A DNA stretch of 26,851 nucleotides from a virus, in IMG/VR virus record IMGVR_UViG_3300029309_000284, positions 422 to 27,272 of that record; one strand, 5' to 3'. The translations under genes and the position numbers were made by a program. The notes under the pieces are model-generated. The model saw nothing but the letters and a program-made list of their open reading frames with translations, was not told where the DNA came from and searched no databases. Shown here in pieces: positions 1,926-18,821 of this stretch (its first letter is position 1; each line of letters begins with the position of its first letter).

Positions 1926-1956
1926 TCGTTTATTATTTTTACATAAATCCGTGACC
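1926..1956 (-). promoter_or_regulatory. Conserved left-arm element, copy A
   Basis: Read on the minus strand: GGTCAC, 19 bases, AAACGA. It shares GTCACGGATTT and the AAACGA end with the copy at 3217-3247, at the same spacing. It directly abuts the U-tract of the terminator at 1957-2003 and precedes the operon that starts at 1910. It does not have sigma-70 -35/-10 hexamers. It may be a phage-specific promoter; an RNA-level signal is also possible. Confidence 0.6.
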
Positions 1957-2003
1957 AAAAAAAAACTTTCTCTTGTGGTCTGTGAGAGTAGAACACAAGA
2001 GAA
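1957..2003 (-). terminator. Rho-independent terminator of the YubB-like gene operon
   Basis: On the minus strand a perfect 10-bp stem (968-977 of this kilobase pairs with 1994-2003: TTCTCTTGTG/CACAAGAGAA) is followed by AG and nine T residues. It lies about 80 bases after the stop codon of the gene at 2082-2705. The plus strand has no T-tract, so it acts leftward only. Stem arms: 1968-1977 and 1994-2003. Confidence 0.9.
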
Positions 2004-2005
2004 GA

Positions 2006-2053
2006 ACCTAGCCATCCGTATACAACAGGGAATTAGTACCGTACTAACTAGGT
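2006..2053 (-). repeat. Nested hairpin just before the terminator
   Basis: An outer 6-bp stem (2006-2011 with 2048-2053, ACCTAG/CTAGGT) encloses a 7-bp inverted repeat with a 1-base centre (2033-2039 with 2041-2047, TTAGTAC/GTACTAA). It sits in the 3' untranslated region immediately before the terminator hairpin. It has no T-tract of its own, so it may protect the transcript 3' end or form part of a larger structure. Confidence 0.55.
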
Positions 2054-2081
2054 CCTTCATCTTATTTTGCGTTTCAATTGC

Positions 2082-2705
2082 TTATGCAGTTGAATCTCTA
2101 TCCATAAACATCTTTTTGACACTTAGTTTCATTTCTTCGTGTTGTTCAACAAAATGTTCATATGTTTCTTGCGTATGTTCATCCGTCCAAGGATATTTAG
2201 TTACACCATCACCGTTACCTAATTCTATATCCCAAGTATTTGTAATACTTAAATTATACTTTCGTGATATATCATTTAATAACATAAAAGGTTCACCCCA
2301 AGCAGAATCAAAACGCATTTCAAGTTCTTTGATACTATCATTTGTAGTGTTTTTAGATACAATTACTGTATCGCAATCACCCCATTTAGTCCCCCAGTTA
2401 CGATATTGCCAGTCAACTGGGTCACAAGTACCATATTTATCTGTAATTTCTAATGCATTAATTTCAAGTAATGGTCTAACACCTTCACTATCTTCAAACC
2501 ATTGTGTATATTTAACACCATCTATATTTCTTGCACCAGTGTGCATTGAATCAAATATATCTGGTAGTGGATTTATTTTAGTTAAATCATAACTAATAGA
2601 AACATCATTTGGTTCTGCTTCTAATACTGTTACATCATTAATAAATCTATCAACATCTTCTGGTTTACCAGTAATTTCTAAGTAATTAGCTGTCCAATTA
2701 GGCAT
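2082..2705 (-). CDS. YubB/Api92-like ferredoxin-fold domain protein
   Basis: A 207-residue protein starting MPNW followed by N-Y-LEITG, the N-terminal signature of the YubB/Api92-like family (DUF1281-related, ferredoxin-like fold). That family is widespread in phages and plasmids. The central DWQYRNWGTKWGDCDT motif (about residues 118-133) also fits the family's conserved W-x-nWGtKW segment. The biochemical function of the family is not established. The protein looks cytoplasmic and acidic. Its ATG overlaps the last base of the preceding gene's stop, so the two are probably coupled. It is the last gene of its module and is followed by two hairpins and a strong terminator. Confidence 0.78.
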   Translation of the reverse strand: MPNWTANYLEITGKPEDVDRFINDVTVLEAEPNDVSISYDLTKINPLPDIFDSMHTGARNIDGVKYTQWFEDSEGVRPLLEINALEITDKYGTCDPVDWQYRNWGTKWGDCDTVIVSKNTTNDSIKELEMRFDSAWGEPFMLLNDISRKYNLSITNTWDIELGNGDGVTKYPWTDEHTQETYEHFVEQHEEMKLSVKKMFMDRDSTA

Positions 2706-2992
2706 TATTCCTCCTCTTTATTAGCAAATTGTTCGTTGATTTCCATCATTGTTGTAATAAGGTCATCACCGTGTTCTATATCTTTGTGATTTTGATTAAG
2801 AAATTCTGTAAATTGATTACGTAAATCATCATTATGTAATGTTCCCATAATAAACATATTTCTAAATTCACTATCACGTTCACCTAGATATTCTGTCATT
2901 ACACTAGTAATATCTGCTAATAACTTTATTCTATTATCTAGATTTGCTAGCATTGCAGATGTTTTCTTCATCATATCTAACATTTCGTCCAT
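2705..2992 (-). CDS. hypothetical helical protein, 95 aa
   Basis: Unrecognised 95-residue protein, almost entirely predicted helix from composition (MLDMMKKTSAMLANLDNRIKLLA at the N-terminus, charged and amide-rich C-terminus). It has no cysteines, signal peptide or membrane span. A heptad-like pattern near residues 3-35 suggests a coiled coil and oligomerisation. Start and stop codons overlap by one base with both neighbours (positions 2992 and 2705), so it is the middle gene of a tightly coupled trio in the leftward module starting at 3207. Confidence 0.72.
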   Translation of the reverse strand: MDEMLDMMKKTSAMLANLDNRIKLLADITSVMTEYLGERDSEFRNMFIMGTLHNDDLRNQFTEFLNQNHKDIEHGDDLITTMMEINEQFANKEEE

Positions 2993-3207
2993 TATTCCTC
3001 CTCTATAGTATTATTTCTTTTAATTTCCTTATCGACTTGATATTCAACAGCTTCAAGTAACATTGCACACCATCCCTTAACTTTTTCGTCTAAGTTTGCA
3101 TAATTAGATGAATTAGCTGCATTGTTCAAGTCATTTATAATCCATAGTAATACTGTAATTAAACTACGTACAGATAAACTATGTATTTTTTCTATTAGGT
3201 TTTGCAT
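2992..3207 (-). CDS. hypothetical protein, 71 aa
   Basis: Unrecognised 71-residue protein with a helix-rich, partly hydrophobic centre (SLITVLLWIINDLNNAA, about 15-31) and a charged C-terminus. The hydrophobic stretch is short and amphipathic; it may be a core helix rather than a membrane span. It is the first gene of its module. The AAACGA end of element B runs straight into its GAAAGG ribosome-binding site, leaving almost no leader. Its stop overlaps the next start by one base. Confidence 0.7.
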   Translation of the reverse strand: MQNLIEKIHSLSVRSLITVLLWIINDLNNAANSSNYANLDEKVKGWCAMLLEAVEYQVDKEIKRNNTIEEE

Positions 3208-3216
3208 AGTTGCCTT

Positions 3217-3247
3217 TCGTTTGACATTTTTGTAAAAATCCGTGACT
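3217..3247 (-). promoter_or_regulatory. Conserved left-arm element, copy B
   Basis: Minus strand: AGTCAC, 19 bases, AAACGA. It is the closest match to copy A, with the shared core GTCACGGATTT at the same spacing. It begins 4 bases after the U-tract of the terminator at 3252-3298. Its AAACGA end overlaps the GAAAGG ribosome-binding site of the gene starting at 3207. If it is a promoter, transcription must start inside the element, giving a very short leader. Confidence 0.6.
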
Positions 3248-3251
3248 TAAT

Positions 3252-3298
3252 AAAAAAAATAGATAACTACGTAGCTATTACTAACTACGCAGTATCTA
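3252..3298 (-). terminator. Rho-independent terminator after the 96-aa gene
   Basis: Minus-strand hairpin with a 6-bp outer stem (260-265 of this kilobase with 293-298, TAGATA/TATCTA), an internal loop and a 5-bp inner stem (3270-3274 with 3285-3289), followed by an eight-T tract (complement of 3252-3259). It lies directly downstream of the gene ending at 3315 and just before conserved element B. Confidence 0.75.
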
Positions 3299-3314
3299 CA
3301 ATTAACAGAGAAGG

Positions 3315-3605
3315 CTATATGCTAACTTCTTCATCAACTAAATCATCCATATTTACTTGATTATTATCTACCTGTTGGGTATCTTGATTACCTTTTTTAG
3401 CTATATAAGTAGGACTTTGTCTATGTAAAGCACGAACTGCTTCAATATCCAAATACAAAGGAATAACTTCCTTTTTACCTTTTACATATGTTGATATCCA
3501 AGTACGTTGTCCCCATTCTAAGGGTTTACCTGTAATACCGCAGATAGGTAACTCATATTGTTTTGTTTCTGTAGAGTCAACAGAAGTAGTATTATCATTT
3601 TCCAT
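3315..3605 (-). CDS. hypothetical protein, 96 aa
   Basis: Unrecognised 96-residue protein. A polar, Thr/Ser-rich N-terminus leads to LPICGITGKPLEWGQRTWIS (about 19-38), which resembles the start of a small zinc-ribbon or treble-clef domain but has only one cysteine, so metal binding is doubtful. A YLDIEAVRALHR helix follows, then an acidic, Asn/Gln-rich tail. A GGAAAGG ribosome-binding site precedes the ATG. It is the last gene of the module that begins at 4159 and is followed by a terminator. Confidence 0.72.
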   Translation of the reverse strand: MENDNTTSVDSTETKQYELPICGITGKPLEWGQRTWISTYVKGKKEVIPLYLDIEAVRALHRQSPTYIAKKGNQDTQQVDNNQVNMDDLVDEEVSI

Positions 3606-3622
3606 AATAATATCCTTTCCGA

Positions 3623-3802
3623 TTATCCAACTTCTAGATAATCTAAATCGTCTTTTAATCTAGCTTCATATTTGTTTAAGCTATGTGCTTTTACACTAGT
3701 AGCTACAATTTCTTTTACAGTATTTGCATTATCTTCGTTAACTTCTTCAACAAAATTAACTACAAGATTAATTGCATTTTTTAGTTCTTCATTTACTTTC
3801 AT
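3623..3802 (-). CDS. hypothetical acidic helical protein, 59 aa
   Basis: A 59-residue reading frame from ATG (3802) to TAA (3623). It is acidic and helix-prone: MKVNEELKNAINLVVNFVEE at the N-terminus, a central NTVKEIVATSVKAH helix, and an acidic DDLDYLEVG end. No family is recognised. It fills the gap between the genes at 3860-4159 and 3315-3605 in the same direction, and has a GGAG Shine-Dalgarno about 10 bases before the ATG. That Shine-Dalgarno directly follows the A-tract of the hairpin at 3817-3855, which could control its exposure. Confidence 0.72.
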   Translation of the reverse strand: MKVNEELKNAINLVVNFVEEVNEDNANTVKEIVATSVKAHSLNKYEARLKDDLDYLEVG

Positions 3803-3816
3803 AAATAAAACACTCC

Positions 3817-3855
3817 TTTTTTTTTATAGATTGCGAAGGCAAGATAGAAAAAAAA
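3817..3855 (-). repeat. U-tract/A-tract leader hairpin, copy 1
   Basis: A 39-base imperfect palindrome with plus-strand order T9, ATAGA, TTGC, GAAG, GCAA, GATAG, A8. The T and A tracts can pair, flanking a TTGC/GCAA stem with a few mismatches. In the leftward transcript the A-tract runs directly into the GGAG ribosome-binding site of the gene at 3623-3802. A similar hairpin stands in the same place before the gene at 4489-4635. It is not a normal terminator, because no U-tract follows a G+C stem. Confidence 0.6.
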
Positions 3856-3859
3856 TACA

Positions 3860-4159
3860 TTAGTATTGTTCTTTTATCTTATCCATTATTTCCGATTCAC
3901 AACTATCGCAGAATCGAAACTTATTATTGAATCTAGCTTTGATTTCTTCTTCTATATGTTCACGATATACAGAATCATCGGTATCGTTATACCAGTCAAA
4001 GTAATAAGTAATTCCTTTACCTAGACTACAACTGCATAATGTATCTACGTATGCACAACCAGAACGATTATAATATTTAGCTGGGTCATAATCTTCTGGA
4101 TTATTAACTGGAATACCAGTATGATGTATTGCGTATCTTAATGATTTTAATTCACTCAC
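3860..4159 (-). CDS. hypothetical Cys-rich protein, 99 aa (GTG start)
   Basis: Unrecognised 99-residue protein with CAYVDTLCSC near residues 35-44 and CDSC (85-88) close to the C-terminus, suggesting a metal-binding or disulphide fold. The reading frame is open to an upstream ATG at 4177, but that has no ribosome-binding site. The GTG at 4159 has GAAAGG 10 bases upstream, like other genes in this arm, so GTG is preferred. The stretch between the two candidate starts lies inside conserved element C. It is the first gene of its module. Confidence 0.7.
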   Translation of the reverse strand: MSELKSLRYAIHHTGIPVNNPEDYDPAKYYNRSGCAYVDTLCSCSLGKGITYYFDWYNDTDDSVYREHIEEEIKARFNNKFRFCDSCESEIMDKIKEQY

Positions 4160-4188
4160 GTTTATTATTCCTTTCATAGTTAGTGACT
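4158..4188 (-). promoter_or_regulatory. Conserved left-arm element, copy C
   Basis: Minus strand: AGTCAC, 19 bases, AAACGT, with the same spacing as copies A and B but a more divergent centre. It includes the GAAAGG ribosome-binding site and touches the GTG start codon of the gene at 3860-4159. It follows the short U-tract of the terminator at 4191-4230. Confidence 0.5.
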
Positions 4189-4190
4189 TT

Positions 4191-4230
4191 AAAAGCTAAC
4201 TAGGTAGATAAGGGAAACTACCTAGTCAAC
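4191..4230 (-). terminator. Rho-independent terminator after the 83-aa zinc-ribbon gene
   Basis: On the minus strand, 4218-4230 pairs with 4195-4207 over 13 bp (GTTGACTAGGTAG with CTACCTAGTTAGC, including G-T wobbles), with a 10-base loop, followed by four T residues. The U-tract is short but the stem is strong. It starts a few bases after the stop codon of the gene at 4235-4486. Confidence 0.8.
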
Positions 4231-4234
4231 TAGT

Positions 4235-4486
4235 TTATAGAGATAACTTAAGCTGTTCGGCTTTAGTTGTTGCTTCTTTAGCTAACTTATCTTCTATAGC
4301 TTTTGTATTTAGTTTACCTCTGCGATGTACGTTCCAGATTTGGTTACTTTCACCTATTTCGTGTAACTTAACACCGCAATGGTTATGTATATATAGCGGA
4401 TACCATTTAGCTTTTTGTCTATGCCAATACCTATTATTTGGTTCAACATCATTACCGCAGTGTCCGCAGATAATTGTTTTACTCAT
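4235..4486 (-). CDS. small zinc-ribbon-like protein, 83 aa
   Basis: An 83-residue basic protein with CGHC (7-10) and HNHC (34-37), a Cx2C...Hx2C pattern that fits a single zinc site in a small zinc-ribbon. The linker carries a WHRQKAKWYP basic/aromatic segment. The C-terminus is Lys/Ala-rich helix. A role in nucleic acid binding or host takeover is plausible for an early phage zinc protein but is inference. The GAAAGG ribosome-binding site lies at the 3' end of the upstream gene (4489-4635), so translation is probably coupled. A terminator follows. Confidence 0.75.
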   Translation of the reverse strand: MSKTIICGHCGNDVEPNNRYWHRQKAKWYPLYIHNHCGVKLHEIGESNQIWNVHRRGKLNTKAIEDKLAKEATTKAEQLKLSL

Positions 4487-4488
4487 AT

Positions 4489-4635
4489 TTACCTTTCAAT
4501 TAAATGTTTATATTTACCTAATCTTATGCCATTAATCACAAATAATTCGCTATATATACTATACAAATTACCTCTATTCTTAATAGCTACATATATAGGT
4601 ATCCATATCCAATACTCAAACCAATTTATTTTCAT
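4489..4635 (-). CDS. hypothetical small protein, 48 aa
   Basis: A 48-residue reading frame from ATG (4635) to TAA (4489), rich in aromatic residues: MKINWFEYWIWIPIYVAIKN at the N-terminus, then a basic end (RLGKYKHLIER). The first half is hydrophobic and aromatic enough to insert in or lie on a membrane. No family is recognised. It is the first gene of its module and has an AAGGA ribosome-binding site next to the A-tract of the hairpin at 4645-4685. Its 3' end contains the ribosome-binding site of the next gene, which supports it as a real, coupled gene. Confidence 0.68.
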   Translation of the reverse strand: MKINWFEYWIWIPIYVAIKNRGNLYSIYSELFVINGIRLGKYKHLIER

Positions 4636-4644
4636 ATAAAATCC

Positions 4645-4685
4645 TTTTTTTTTATTACGAATGCGAATGCAGGCGGAAGAAAAAA
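4645..4685 (-). repeat. U-tract/A-tract leader hairpin, copy 2
   Basis: A 41-base imperfect palindrome, plus-strand order T9, ATTACGAA, TGC, GAAT, GCA, GGCGGAAG, A6. Pairs include T/A tract pairing, TT/AA, GC/CG and TGC/GCA, with regularly placed mismatches. It starts 5 bases after element D in the leftward direction and ends directly at the AAGGA ribosome-binding site of the gene at 4489-4635. Layout matches copy 1 at 3817-3855. Confidence 0.6.
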
Positions 4686-4690
4686 ATACT

Positions 4691-4723
4691 ATCGTTTGAC
4701 ATTTAGACTACAGATAAAGCGAC
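4691..4723 (-). promoter_or_regulatory. Conserved left-arm element, copy D
   Basis: Minus strand: AGTCGC, 21 bases, AAACGA, sharing the AAATGTCAAACGA end with copy B but with two extra bases in the middle. It directly follows the eight-T tract of the terminator at 4724-4776 and precedes the leader hairpin at 4645-4685. Confidence 0.55.
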
Positions 4724-4776
4724 TAAAAAAAATACCTGGCTAACTAAGATAAAATTAATTACCCTAGTTAACCAAG
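4724..4776 (-). terminator. Rho-independent terminator after the first leftward gene
   Basis: A 13-bp minus-strand stem (4764-4776 with 4733-4745: ACTTGGTTAACTA with TAGTTAGCCAGGT, two G-T wobbles) is followed by eight T residues. It lies just downstream of the 88-aa zinc-ribbon gene, the first gene served by the leftward sigma-70-like promoter. Confidence 0.88.
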
Positions 4777-4788
4777 TAAATTGGATAT

Positions 4789-5055
4789 TTAGTTGTTAAT
4801 ATAACCGAATGCTTCTTTAGCTTTAGATTCACCGCAAGGTTTACACCAGTTCCAAACTATAAATATATTATCTACATAAGTACCATTATCAAATTTGGCC
4901 TTAGGTCGAATCCATCTAAAGTTATTACCTTTCTTAAAAGTTTTATTACAACCTTTACATTCATAGATACTAGACTTAGTTTCTTCAACTACTTCTTCGG
5001 TTACTTCAACTTTATCTACAGTTTCTTCTGTAGACTTTTTATTTAATATAGCCAT
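4789..5055 (-). CDS. zinc-ribbon protein, 88 aa, first leftward gene
   Basis: An 88-residue protein with a Glu/Val/Thr-rich, probably disordered N-terminus (1-30), then CKGC (33-36) and CKPC (71-74), the two knuckles of a four-cysteine zinc ribbon. Between them are basic and aromatic residues (KKGNNFRWIRPKAKF) suited to nucleic acid contact. It is the first gene of the leftward arm, with a GAAAGG ribosome-binding site and a terminator right after it, so it may be expressed alone at the earliest stage. A role as early regulator is inferred from position and zinc motif only. Confidence 0.78.
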   Translation of the reverse strand: MAILNKKSTEETVDKVEVTEEVVEETKSSIYECKGCNKTFKKGNNFRWIRPKAKFDNGTYVDNIFIVWNWCKPCGESKAKEAFGYINN

Positions 5056-5230: not shown

Positions 5231-5581
5231 CCATATAAATATGTATTTCTGTATATCTATATTGTCTATAAATTTAAAGTATCTAAGTAGTCGGATATAC
5301 AGAAATTCATATACAAGATGTTTGACTAACAGGTTTTAATCTAGCCTGTCACTTTATTATACGTAAGGTCTAGAAAATATGTTGGTAATTCTGTAGACCG
5401 TATTGTCAGTAAACACAGCCTTTTTGAGCATTAGCGGGCATATTATGTCAGTATGCTGACTAAACCTTTTCTTGTGTCCTTGGGTACTGCCTTTGTCTTT
5501 CTAGTGTACTGTCTTGCCAGTCAGCAGCTTTTCGACTCCCGATGCCATCTTTACCTGTAACAAATTACTTGTGTTTAGTGT
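5231..5581. other. Non-coding central region between the two arms
   Basis: No credible gene lies between 5056 and 5648. The left part is very A+T rich and carries the inverted repeat at 5245-5306. The right part (5401-5560) is G+C richer, 69 of 160 bases by my count, and has several small inverted repeats: ACAGG/CCTGT (5329-5349), GGTCTA/TAGACC (5367-5399) and GTCAG/CTGAC (near 5447-5460). Divergent transcription starts on both sides. This is a reasonable place for a replication origin, operators or a small RNA, but none is proven. Confidence 0.6.
5245..5306. repeat. 13-bp perfect inverted repeat with 36-base loop
   Basis: ATTTCTGTATATC (5245-5257) is exactly complementary to 5294-5306. After one mismatch, five more bases pair outside (ATATG with CATAT). 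The A+T-rich loop is 36 bases. It could be a cruciform or hairpin at an origin, or two operator half-sites. It lies just upstream of the leftward promoter. Confidence 0.75.
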
Positions 5582-5610
5582 TTGTAATTAAGTTGACTAT
5601 AGCATATAAT
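5582..5610 (+). promoter_or_regulatory. Rightward sigma-70-like promoter of the late arm
   Basis: TTGTAA (5582-5587), 17-base spacer, perfect TATAAT (5605-5610). Transcription would start near 5617, about 30 bases before the terminase ATG. A TTGACT at 5593-5598 is too close to the -10 to serve as its -35. Confidence 0.68.
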
Positions 5611-5648
5611 TCTCACTATACAAACATCTAATGAAAGATAGTTAATTA

Positions 5649-16831: not shown

Positions 16832-17595
16832 GTTTAGAAGAAGATTATAAAAGATTAGCAGAAGAATTTTTAGCTAAATACAAAGAACTTGATTATGTTG
16901 CTAGTGGTGATAAAGCTACTGATGAATTAAATAAAACAGACCCTATGCGTATAAACCCATACCCATCAGAAATTTTTGGCAATCCTGATGCAGAATTAGC
17001 ATTAAATGATTTACGTGCTGAATATGAAGCAAAAGGTATTGATACTTATCAAGTGCAAAAAGGAAATTTTACAGCTCCTGTAAACTTTAGAAATCAAAAA
17101 TTTCCTATGCGACCAGAATCTATAGACCCTAATATTTCTAATTCATTAGCAAAAAATATGAACGTAGAACCAGGTGTTATGAAAAAAATATTAGGTGTTG
17201 GTATGAGATTGTTACCTTTTATTGATGAAGAAATACTTATATCAGGGCCAGCAACACTTGCATCTAAAGCATTAAAAAAAGGTGGTTTTGTTAAAACAGC
17301 TGCAGGACTAACAACAGGCGCTGCTGCAATAGGTACTTATGAAACTTATTGGATGATAGCTAATTTAGGTATGGCTGCTATGAATCAAATACGTAGTGAA
17401 GCAAAAGAACCAGGTGGTGTACCTGAAATGTTATTTAGTGAAGATGTATCAACTGATAATAAAGAACAATTTTTTAATGATTTAGATAGATATTTAAAAG
17501 GTTCAATAGCAATGAATGTATGGAAATACGGTATATCTAGACCTATGGGATATGATGAACCAATAGATGTTATAAGGAGAATAGTAGGTAAATGA
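16828..17595 (+). CDS. probable membrane-interacting internal virion protein, 255 aa
   Basis: A 255-residue protein with an acidic, helical N-terminus (1-75) and a hydrophobic middle. Residues 119-146 (around ILGVGMRLLPFIDEEILISG) and 153-186 (FVKTAAGLTTGAAAIGT, then YWMIANLGMAAM) are Gly/Ala-rich and could insert in a membrane. The combination of giant helical protein and small membrane-active protein is known from podovirus ejection complexes. Assignment here is by analogy only; no homology to gp14 or similar is claimed. ATGA overlaps join it to the genes on both sides. Confidence 0.65.
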   Translation: MSLEEDYKRLAEEFLAKYKELDYVASGDKATDELNKTDPMRINPYPSEIFGNPDAELALNDLRAEYEAKGIDTYQVQKGNFTAPVNFRNQKFPMRPESIDPNISNSLAKNMNVEPGVMKKILGVGMRLLPFIDEEILISGPATLASKALKKGGFVKTAAGLTTGAAAIGTYETYWMIANLGMAAMNQIRSEAKEPGGVPEMLFSEDVSTDNKEQFFNDLDRYLKGSIAMNVWKYGISRPMGYDEPIDVIRRIVGK

Positions 17596-18821
17596 GTCAA
17601 GTAATTTATGGACCTGAAGGTTCACAAATAATACAAATAGAGGGAACTAATACGTATTATATTGCTGTAGATGTTGGCGATACTATGTATTTTTACGAAG
17701 TACCAGATAATTTTTCTTTAAAAGAAATGACAGATATTACATCAGATATTATTGATGACCCTCAACTTTATGAAAATTATGTTAAAGGTTTAAAAGACAC
17801 TGGTGATTTAATAGTTATTGATGATGATACTTTTAAAGCAAAAGTATATCAGGATGACCGTATTGTTGTAGTTGGTAAAGATGTATTACAGTTACAAGAA
17901 GATTATGACGATGTAGATAGTATTACAGCAATGTTAACTGGATTAGAAGATTTAAAAACTAATGCAGAATATTGGACAAATGATATATATCTAGATGCAT
18001 TAAATGATTATGTAATGAAATATGGTATAGATAAAATAGATGATTTTTATGATTCTAAAGAACTTAGAACAGCTTTAGATATGATGAATTACAGTGTTGC
18101 AAGATATAATGGCGAAACTAGAAAAGTAAGAGATAGAGATGGTTGGGAAGCAGATGTTGCTGATTATACTGCAACATTAAAAGATTATGTATTATTTGAT
18201 TTACAAGCTGAATTACCAGAAGCTGCTATTGCTTATGCAGCAGAACAATGGGCTACAGGTTGGAGTGAAGACAAAGCTAAAAGACAACTTAGAAAATTAG
18301 TAGATAAAGGTTATAAGATAGGTGGTTCTGTAGACTCAGTTCTTTCAAGTATTGCAGAAGGTGGAACAGTTAAAGCCTCTATGGTAGGACATGAAGATGT
18401 TCAAGATTTAATGGATATGTATTTAACACCTGAAGCACACTCTAGTTTTGATAAAGAAGGAGAAGCAAGTAAATTACGTAATACTCCTAGTTATCAGACT
18501 ACATTAATTAAAAAATTACAAAAATTAAATCATACTTATTATCCAGATTTAGCTGAAGATATACAAATTGGACAATTAATTAACTCAAAAATAAATCATT
18601 TTGAAAGTATTAGTGGAATGTTATTAGATAAAGATGATAAAAAAGATTGGGGTGTTATTGATAAAATGTTAAAAGCTAAAGATTATGATGAAGCGTCTAA
18701 AATAGCACGTTCTATAGCATATACAAGAGGTTCTGATTTATTTAACAAAGATGTAGCTAATGCGTTTGCTGCATTTGGTAGTACTACTATAGGTGCGCAA
18801 CAATATGTGGAGCGTGGATAA
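17592..18821 (+). CDS. probable internal virion protein, 409 aa
   Basis: Unrecognised 409-residue acidic protein. The first 120 residues look like beta strands (IIQIEGTNTYYIAVDVGDTMYFYEV), followed by helices rich in Asp, Leu and Ala. No enzyme motif or membrane span is visible. It is tied to its neighbours by an ATGA overlap at the start and a TAATG overlap at the end. The position within the portal-to-scaffold block suggests a virion component, possibly part of the ejected set. Confidence 0.68.
   Translation: MSQVIYGPEGSQIIQIEGTNTYYIAVDVGDTMYFYEVPDNFSLKEMTDITSDIIDDPQLYENYVKGLKDTGDLIVIDDDTFKAKVYQDDRIVVVGKDVLQLQEDYDDVDSITAMLTGLEDLKTNAEYWTNDIYLDALNDYVMKYGIDKIDDFYDSKELRTALDMMNYSVARYNGETRKVRDRDGWEADVADYTATLKDYVLFDLQAELPEAAIAYAAEQWATGWSEDKAKRQLRKLVDKGYKIGGSVDSVLSSIAEGGTVKASMVGHEDVQDLMDMYLTPEAHSSFDKEGEASKLRNTPSYQTTLIKKLQKLNHTYYPDLAEDIQIGQLINSKINHFESISGMLLDKDDKKDWGVIDKMLKAKDYDEASKIARSIAYTRGSDLFNKDVANAFAAFGSTTIGAQQYVERG

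Follow-up and report, generated by a model that had tools for sequence, protein, structure and literature searches.

The stretch of viral DNA analysed here (the window) is 26,851 nucleotides (nt) long and makes up most of the 27,272-base IMG/VR virus record IMGVR_UViG_3300029309_000284, of which it covers positions 422 to 27,272. In the leftward gene arm of this phage, an intrinsic terminator with a short minus-strand element directly behind it recurs between gene modules. With about even confidence, the unit is read from its sequence as a terminator backed by a compact transcription re-start element, a candidate promoter. The element is repeated, follows a spacing rule relative to the T-tract of the terminator and shares a core with the other copies in the same genome. 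From these patterns we infer the promoter identity, the position of the RNA start and a recognising factor.

Terminators and the repeated element

An earlier note on this DNA described four terminator-plus-element copies carrying AGTCRC-N19/21-AAACGA, three of them with identical spacing. Exact matches to the motif number two in the window, where 0.01 would be expected. If one mismatch is tolerated, the 19-base version matches 1926-1956, 3217-3247 and 4158-4188 (0.14 expected per window), which bears out the identical spacing, and the 21-base version matches 4692-4724 (0.07 expected per window). The repeat is above chance, but the AGTCRC half is poorly kept. It reads GGTCAC in the copy at 1926-1956, AGTCAC at 4158-4188 becomes AATCAT in the close relative L084, and AGTCRC is missing from the copies in L085 and L012 and from an extra copy in G001 (IMGVR_UViG_3300030372_003259, 32.7 kb), a record nearly identical to the window phage with a left arm that extends further. 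The conserved part is AATRWYAAACG (AATRWYAAACGA), with five matches in the window against 0.19 expected, four of them at the sites above.

Three copies, all on the minus strand, are solid. Terminator A has a hairpin at 4733..4778 (-26.4 kcal/mol) followed by T8 (4725-4732), and behind it stands element A (4692..4724; AGTCGCTTTATCTGTAGTCTAAATGTCAAACGA) with the core AATGTCAAACG at 4693-4703. A 5' leader hairpin at 4645..4686 follows; its stem pairs a T-tract with an A-tract and has the Shine-Dalgarno sequence AAAAAAAAAGGA at its end, and the hairpin is the same in L085 and L012. Terminator C (3266..3293, -21.6 kcal/mol, then T8 at 3252-3259) precedes element C (3217..3247; AGTCACGGATTTTTACAAAAATGTCAAACGA; core at 3218-3228), which is conserved in L084. 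Terminator D (1966..2003, -15.8 kcal/mol, then T9 at 1957-1965) precedes element D (1926..1956; GGTCACGGATTTATGTAAAAATAATAAACGA; core at 1927-1937), kept in L084 with two changes outside the core. The fourth copy, B (4158..4188, also minus), has its sequence where it was described but is doubtful, because hairpin B (4192..4232, -19.2 kcal/mol) has a weak U tail (UUAGCUUUU), the copy itself holds a Shine-Dalgarno sequence, running into a GTG start, and the same position in the L085 and L024 phages is without the element; it is not conserved in relatives. A stable hairpin directly before a T-tract was found at three of the four sites, so the terminator proposed before each copy stands for those placed at 4691, 3217 and 1926 (T8, T8 and T9) and not for that at 4158. 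A further solid copy lies in G001 at 18073, beyond the window edge. Its T9 tract has no adjacent hairpin; tract and spacing are kept, and a T8 tract and AATATCAAACTAG follow at the same spacing. No Rfam family was found in the first 6 kb of the window.

Megablast of the window against 50,697 phage records gave no match, and the terminase is less than 60% identical to that of every named phage matched. For the terminase and a left-arm AAA ATPase, more than 200 IMG/VR relatives each were found. Six lineages among them have the same terminator-element architecture with different cores, and the element-bearing lineages are few and related. The core is AAATRTCAAACGAKAG in the window, L085 and L012, TATTAAGTAGCGMTA in L093, TATTAACAAACACKTGATAAGT in L115, AACTATATANACAATTAATGACGA or TGATRACGAGA in L146, L152 and L154, and GGTAGCGAAAGG in L027, L089 and L099, with a looser form in L148. 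Within a genome the core is common to the copies, mostly at p<=0.01 against shuffles. The motif had been expected at syntenic sites of related phages: the core of element A is indeed kept in L084, L012, L085 and L024, but syntenic first copies are usually unlike between lineages. All copies are oriented with their arm. The structural arm yielded no intergenic copy, and the element is for this reason not taken as a late promoter.

A moron-type insertion was rejected, since the genes behind elements C and D occur throughout the family. A collection-wide scan with T6-N22-32-TRTCAAACGAKAG gave 24 stretches; those outside the phage family had unrelated surroundings and were put down to chance. Some elements contain -35-like GGAAC/GGATT blocks, which were also set aside because they lie at no fixed distance from the core. 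In L113, L125, L127 and L130, a different repeated intergenic motif, TAGCGTGCTGTGRATAGGT, occurs twice in the left arm.

Spacing of the core and competing readings

From the relatives, 26 non-redundant sites were collected at which a terminator is followed by an open reading frame. They are of two kinds: either the T-tract is followed at once by a Shine-Dalgarno sequence and ATG, or about 30 nt separate it from a core. In the second kind, the distance from the end of the T-tract to the CG of the core was 27-32 nt (mean 29.3, standard deviation 1.24) at 21 sites of differing sequence, which come from only six to eight lineages and were measured to a CG anchor picked after the alignments had been inspected. 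In the window lineage the CG lies 28-32 nt past the T-tract. The distance from core to start codon is variable, from 0 to about 95 nt. At the 16 sites scored, the Shine-Dalgarno sequence begins 0 to 53 nt after the CG and never earlier. A leader hairpin of 35-60 nt lies between core and Shine-Dalgarno sequence in the first copies of five lineages, with the T-tract distance still fixed, and begins just after the core in the L093, L115 and L121 phages. In L085, the core runs straight into ATG (AAACGATG), a junction that would suit a leaderless start.

A promoter with its start at the core is favoured, because the T-tract distance is fixed, the start-codon distance is variable and the Shine-Dalgarno sequence never precedes the CG. 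The last point and the L085 junction would both follow if the RNA begins at about the base after CG, and the 5' hairpins that begin just after the core, together with a motif shared within the genome, also fit a promoter.

An unlikely alternative is that the element acts in translation or as part of the leader, in the manner of the Start-Associated Sequences (SAS) of cluster K mycobacteriophages, the core before the Shine-Dalgarno sequence adjusting how ribosomes load on readthrough transcripts or how stable these are. The Shine-Dalgarno sequence does start 0-3 nt after the core in 11 of the 16 sites, and SAS are similar (PMC3203893). This reading fits less well since such an element would be tied to the start codon; here it is the T-tract distance that is fixed, the hairpin parts core from Shine-Dalgarno sequence in the five lineages, and other left-arm genes have a good Shine-Dalgarno sequence but no core.

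It is rather improbable that the element is a processing or antitermination site, the left arm being one transcript with phage-controlled readthrough and the RNA cut, or the elongation complex modified, at the element. Terminators of relatives that stand directly before a Shine-Dalgarno sequence and ATG would suit this reading, as would the hairpin before the Shine-Dalgarno sequence of almost every left-arm gene. It gives no reason for the T-tract or Shine-Dalgarno rule, however, and an antitermination site is normally found upstream of the terminator that it acts on, whereas the element lies downstream; the elements also share no common RNA fold and have no Rfam match.

Still less probable is an operator or 'stoperator'-like site at which a phage regulator would bind, behind the terminators, and silence the early modules or block their transcription. 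Cluster A stoperators are short, asymmetric, in one orientation, shared within a genome and differing between lineages, and the same is true of the element. A silencing site explains neither the fixed T-tract distance nor the Shine-Dalgarno sequence always being downstream, and scans of left-arm and G006 proteins gave no match to a repressor or integrase family, the one HTH_39 protein apart. A duplicated terminator-leader cassette, similar by descent and without present function, is very improbable: elements C and D are alike over 30 bases, but L084, L012 and L085 keep the core while the flanks change, and the spacing is maintained in unrelated lineages whose cores differ.

The promoter reading has several observations to weigh against it, beyond the anchor and the few lineages behind the spacing figures. 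The elements score no better than shuffles against the sigma-70 consensus of -35/-10 hexamers 15-19 bp apart (7.05 against 7.36), in agreement with the earlier view that the element is unlike a sigma-70 promoter. A single-subunit RNA polymerase (PF00940) was detected in none of 19 long relatives, none of them rated complete, and the same holds for the sigma-70 region 4 domain; the T7 control and the sigma controls were detected. Lineage V (L143, L054) has a small hairpin after the T-tract and a spacing of 35-36 nt, and copy C of L085 has AGGAAGG upstream of the core. At the terminators of relatives that lead at once into a Shine-Dalgarno sequence and ATG there is no space for a promoter, and therefore readthrough must be possible at those sites.

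Such an arrangement is seen in L138, L050/L112, L061/L148 and L027/L087, where T7-T9 terminators have a Shine-Dalgarno sequence and ATG within 1-20 nt, and regulated readthrough at them is likely from the sequence layout.

Sigma-70-like promoters and candidate factors

Between the arms, two sigma-70-like promoters overlap in opposite directions: TTGTAA-17-TATAAT (5582..5610, plus strand), found family-wide before the terminase/structural arm, and TTGTAT-16-TATAGT (5596..5623, minus strand) before the left arm. Both are kept in 26 aligned relatives, and the pair (5582-5623) sits inside a GTTTGTA...TACAAAC inverted repeat that is conserved over the family. It is very probable that both arms are opened by host sigma-70-type promoters; a second class, made up of the post-terminator elements and confined to the left arm, is plausible.

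The earlier note proposed a phage-specific RNA polymerase or sigma factor acting at the element, and a two-step cascade. Such a factor is not supported, PF00940 and sigma-70 region 4 having gone undetected in the 19 long relatives, and protein scans of G001 and G006 found no polymerase; they gave an exonuclease, a single-strand annealing protein, a lysozyme-like protein and the AAA ATPase. What survives of the cascade is the conserved sigma-70-like divergent promoter and a first leftward gene without the element, while the phage polymerase or sigma factor and a role as late promoter drop out. A promoter insulated by a terminator, as the note proposed, is still the best-fitting reading.

Under the promoter reading, host RNA polymerase would transcribe the first leftward gene from 5596-5623 and stop at the first U-tract. 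The next module would be started anew from the stretch of about 30 bp between the T-tract and the genome-specific core, with the RNA start at or very near the A of ...CGA. The Shine-Dalgarno sequence would stand at the very start of the short leader or behind a 5' hairpin there. Each phage lineage has its own core sequence, which suggests that a factor specific to the lineage, of phage or host, recognises it together with host RNA polymerase.

The first leftward gene (4789..5055, minus strand) encodes an 88-aa zinc-ribbon-like protein, zn88, a possible trans factor with the invariant residues C, G, N, R, F, C, P and C and an AlphaFold model of mean pLDDT 59. It was found in the element-bearing lineages W, K, Q, R, T and Y, where the elements are multi-copy, and forms three separate groups on a MoxR tree of 55 AAA ATPase rows. 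The link is imperfect: lineages P and V lack zn88 yet show a single element-like site, and genomes without zn88 also contain other repeated intergenic motifs. The protein may therefore serve as a lead only. It is rather improbable that the elements form a new promoter class in which the terminator U-tract (T8-9) is the upstream part, about 30 bp from a lineage-specific start core, and in which a small phage protein, for example zn88, redirects host RNA polymerase, the polymerase freed at a terminator being reused for the module behind it.

Other left-arm features and comparable motifs

Gene calls were simple open reading frame calls. From 5649 onward, the rightward genes encode the terminase, the portal and further structural proteins; the leftward genes below 5055 encode small proteins, mostly without an assigned function, together with a DUF1281-type protein and the MoxR-like AAA ATPase. 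A scan of GTDB genomes with the terminase (TerL) gave matches in an Actinomycetota metagenome-assembled genome (MAG; 73-77%) and a Gammaproteobacteria MAG (70%). Both may be binning errors, and the host is therefore not assigned. The two terminase relatives at 73-77%, L174 and L176 (PBPX01000048.1), come from a 54-kb contig binned as an Actinomycetota MAG, possibly a host hint, possibly a binning error.

For most left-arm genes across the family, a hairpin adjoins the Shine-Dalgarno sequence (window 3817-3855 and 4645-4686, minus strand; L085 4018 and 3122; many other loci). In the window lineage the stem is formed by a T-tract and an A-tract with a TTCGC-like loop. These hairpins are possibly mRNA stabilisers or processing sites. 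Beside the terminase gene, a non-coding block of about 126 nt (5433-5558) is strongly conserved over the family. Its consensus fold is weak (-13 kcal/mol), so that a structured RNA and a packaging site or leader are equally likely. A 560-nt gap from the gene after the AAA ATPase to an 81-aa gene (L083 12141-12700; G001 17575-18134) is rich in apparent stems, with no Rfam match in the G001 copy.

Cluster K mycobacteriophages such as TM4 and Adephagia carry SAS and ESAS at non-structural gene starts (PMC3203893, PMC11373665); the ESAS of Adephagia holds a putative SigA promoter, and its copy P91 lies just after a putative terminator (PMC11373665). Cluster A stoperators are mentioned in PMC3203893 as well. 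Like SAS/ESAS, the phage element is a short asymmetric motif repeated at non-structural gene starts in one orientation, and the longer upstream part of SAS/ESAS that differs between subclusters is a further likeness. There is no sequence match, however. SAS is a 13-bp motif that contains the Shine-Dalgarno sequence (AGGAG) 3-8 nt from the start codon, whereas the core here has none, lies 0-95 nt from the start and is followed by the Shine-Dalgarno sequence. The 17-bp inverted repeats and SigA-like hexamers of ESAS are missing, the aligned elements sharing no inverted repeat, and no T-tract spacing rule is reported for SAS/ESAS.

Microbacterium phages of clusters EC, EF and EI have 5-12 copies of an asymmetric intergenic motif of unknown function (PMC7302621). 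These too occupy short gaps that mostly separate non-structural genes, and they coincide with the ribosome binding site or precede it, but they have other sequences and are not described as lying behind terminators. Cluster EI encodes a sigma factor; none was found in the relatives of the window phage. By analogy, the element would work like SAS/ESAS and the Microbacterium motifs without having the sequences that define them. T7-like promoters also occur as several short conserved copies per genome that differ between phages, unlike the present case in that no single-subunit polymerase gene was found in the relatives. Post-termination recycling of bacterial RNA polymerase, reported as a general in vitro behaviour (PMC6978380, PMC6978322), would give a reason why a promoter about 30 bp behind an intrinsic terminator could be effective; it is a behaviour of the polymerase and not a sequence element like that of the phage.

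With the spacing rule, a previously undescribed motif yields a testable claim on early transcript starts in a large uncultured phage family (>200 contigs). If the promoter reading is right, the left arms would be built of simple stop-and-restart modules, each phage lineage with its own start signal, and this would help to interpret similar unexplained repeats in actinobacteriophages.

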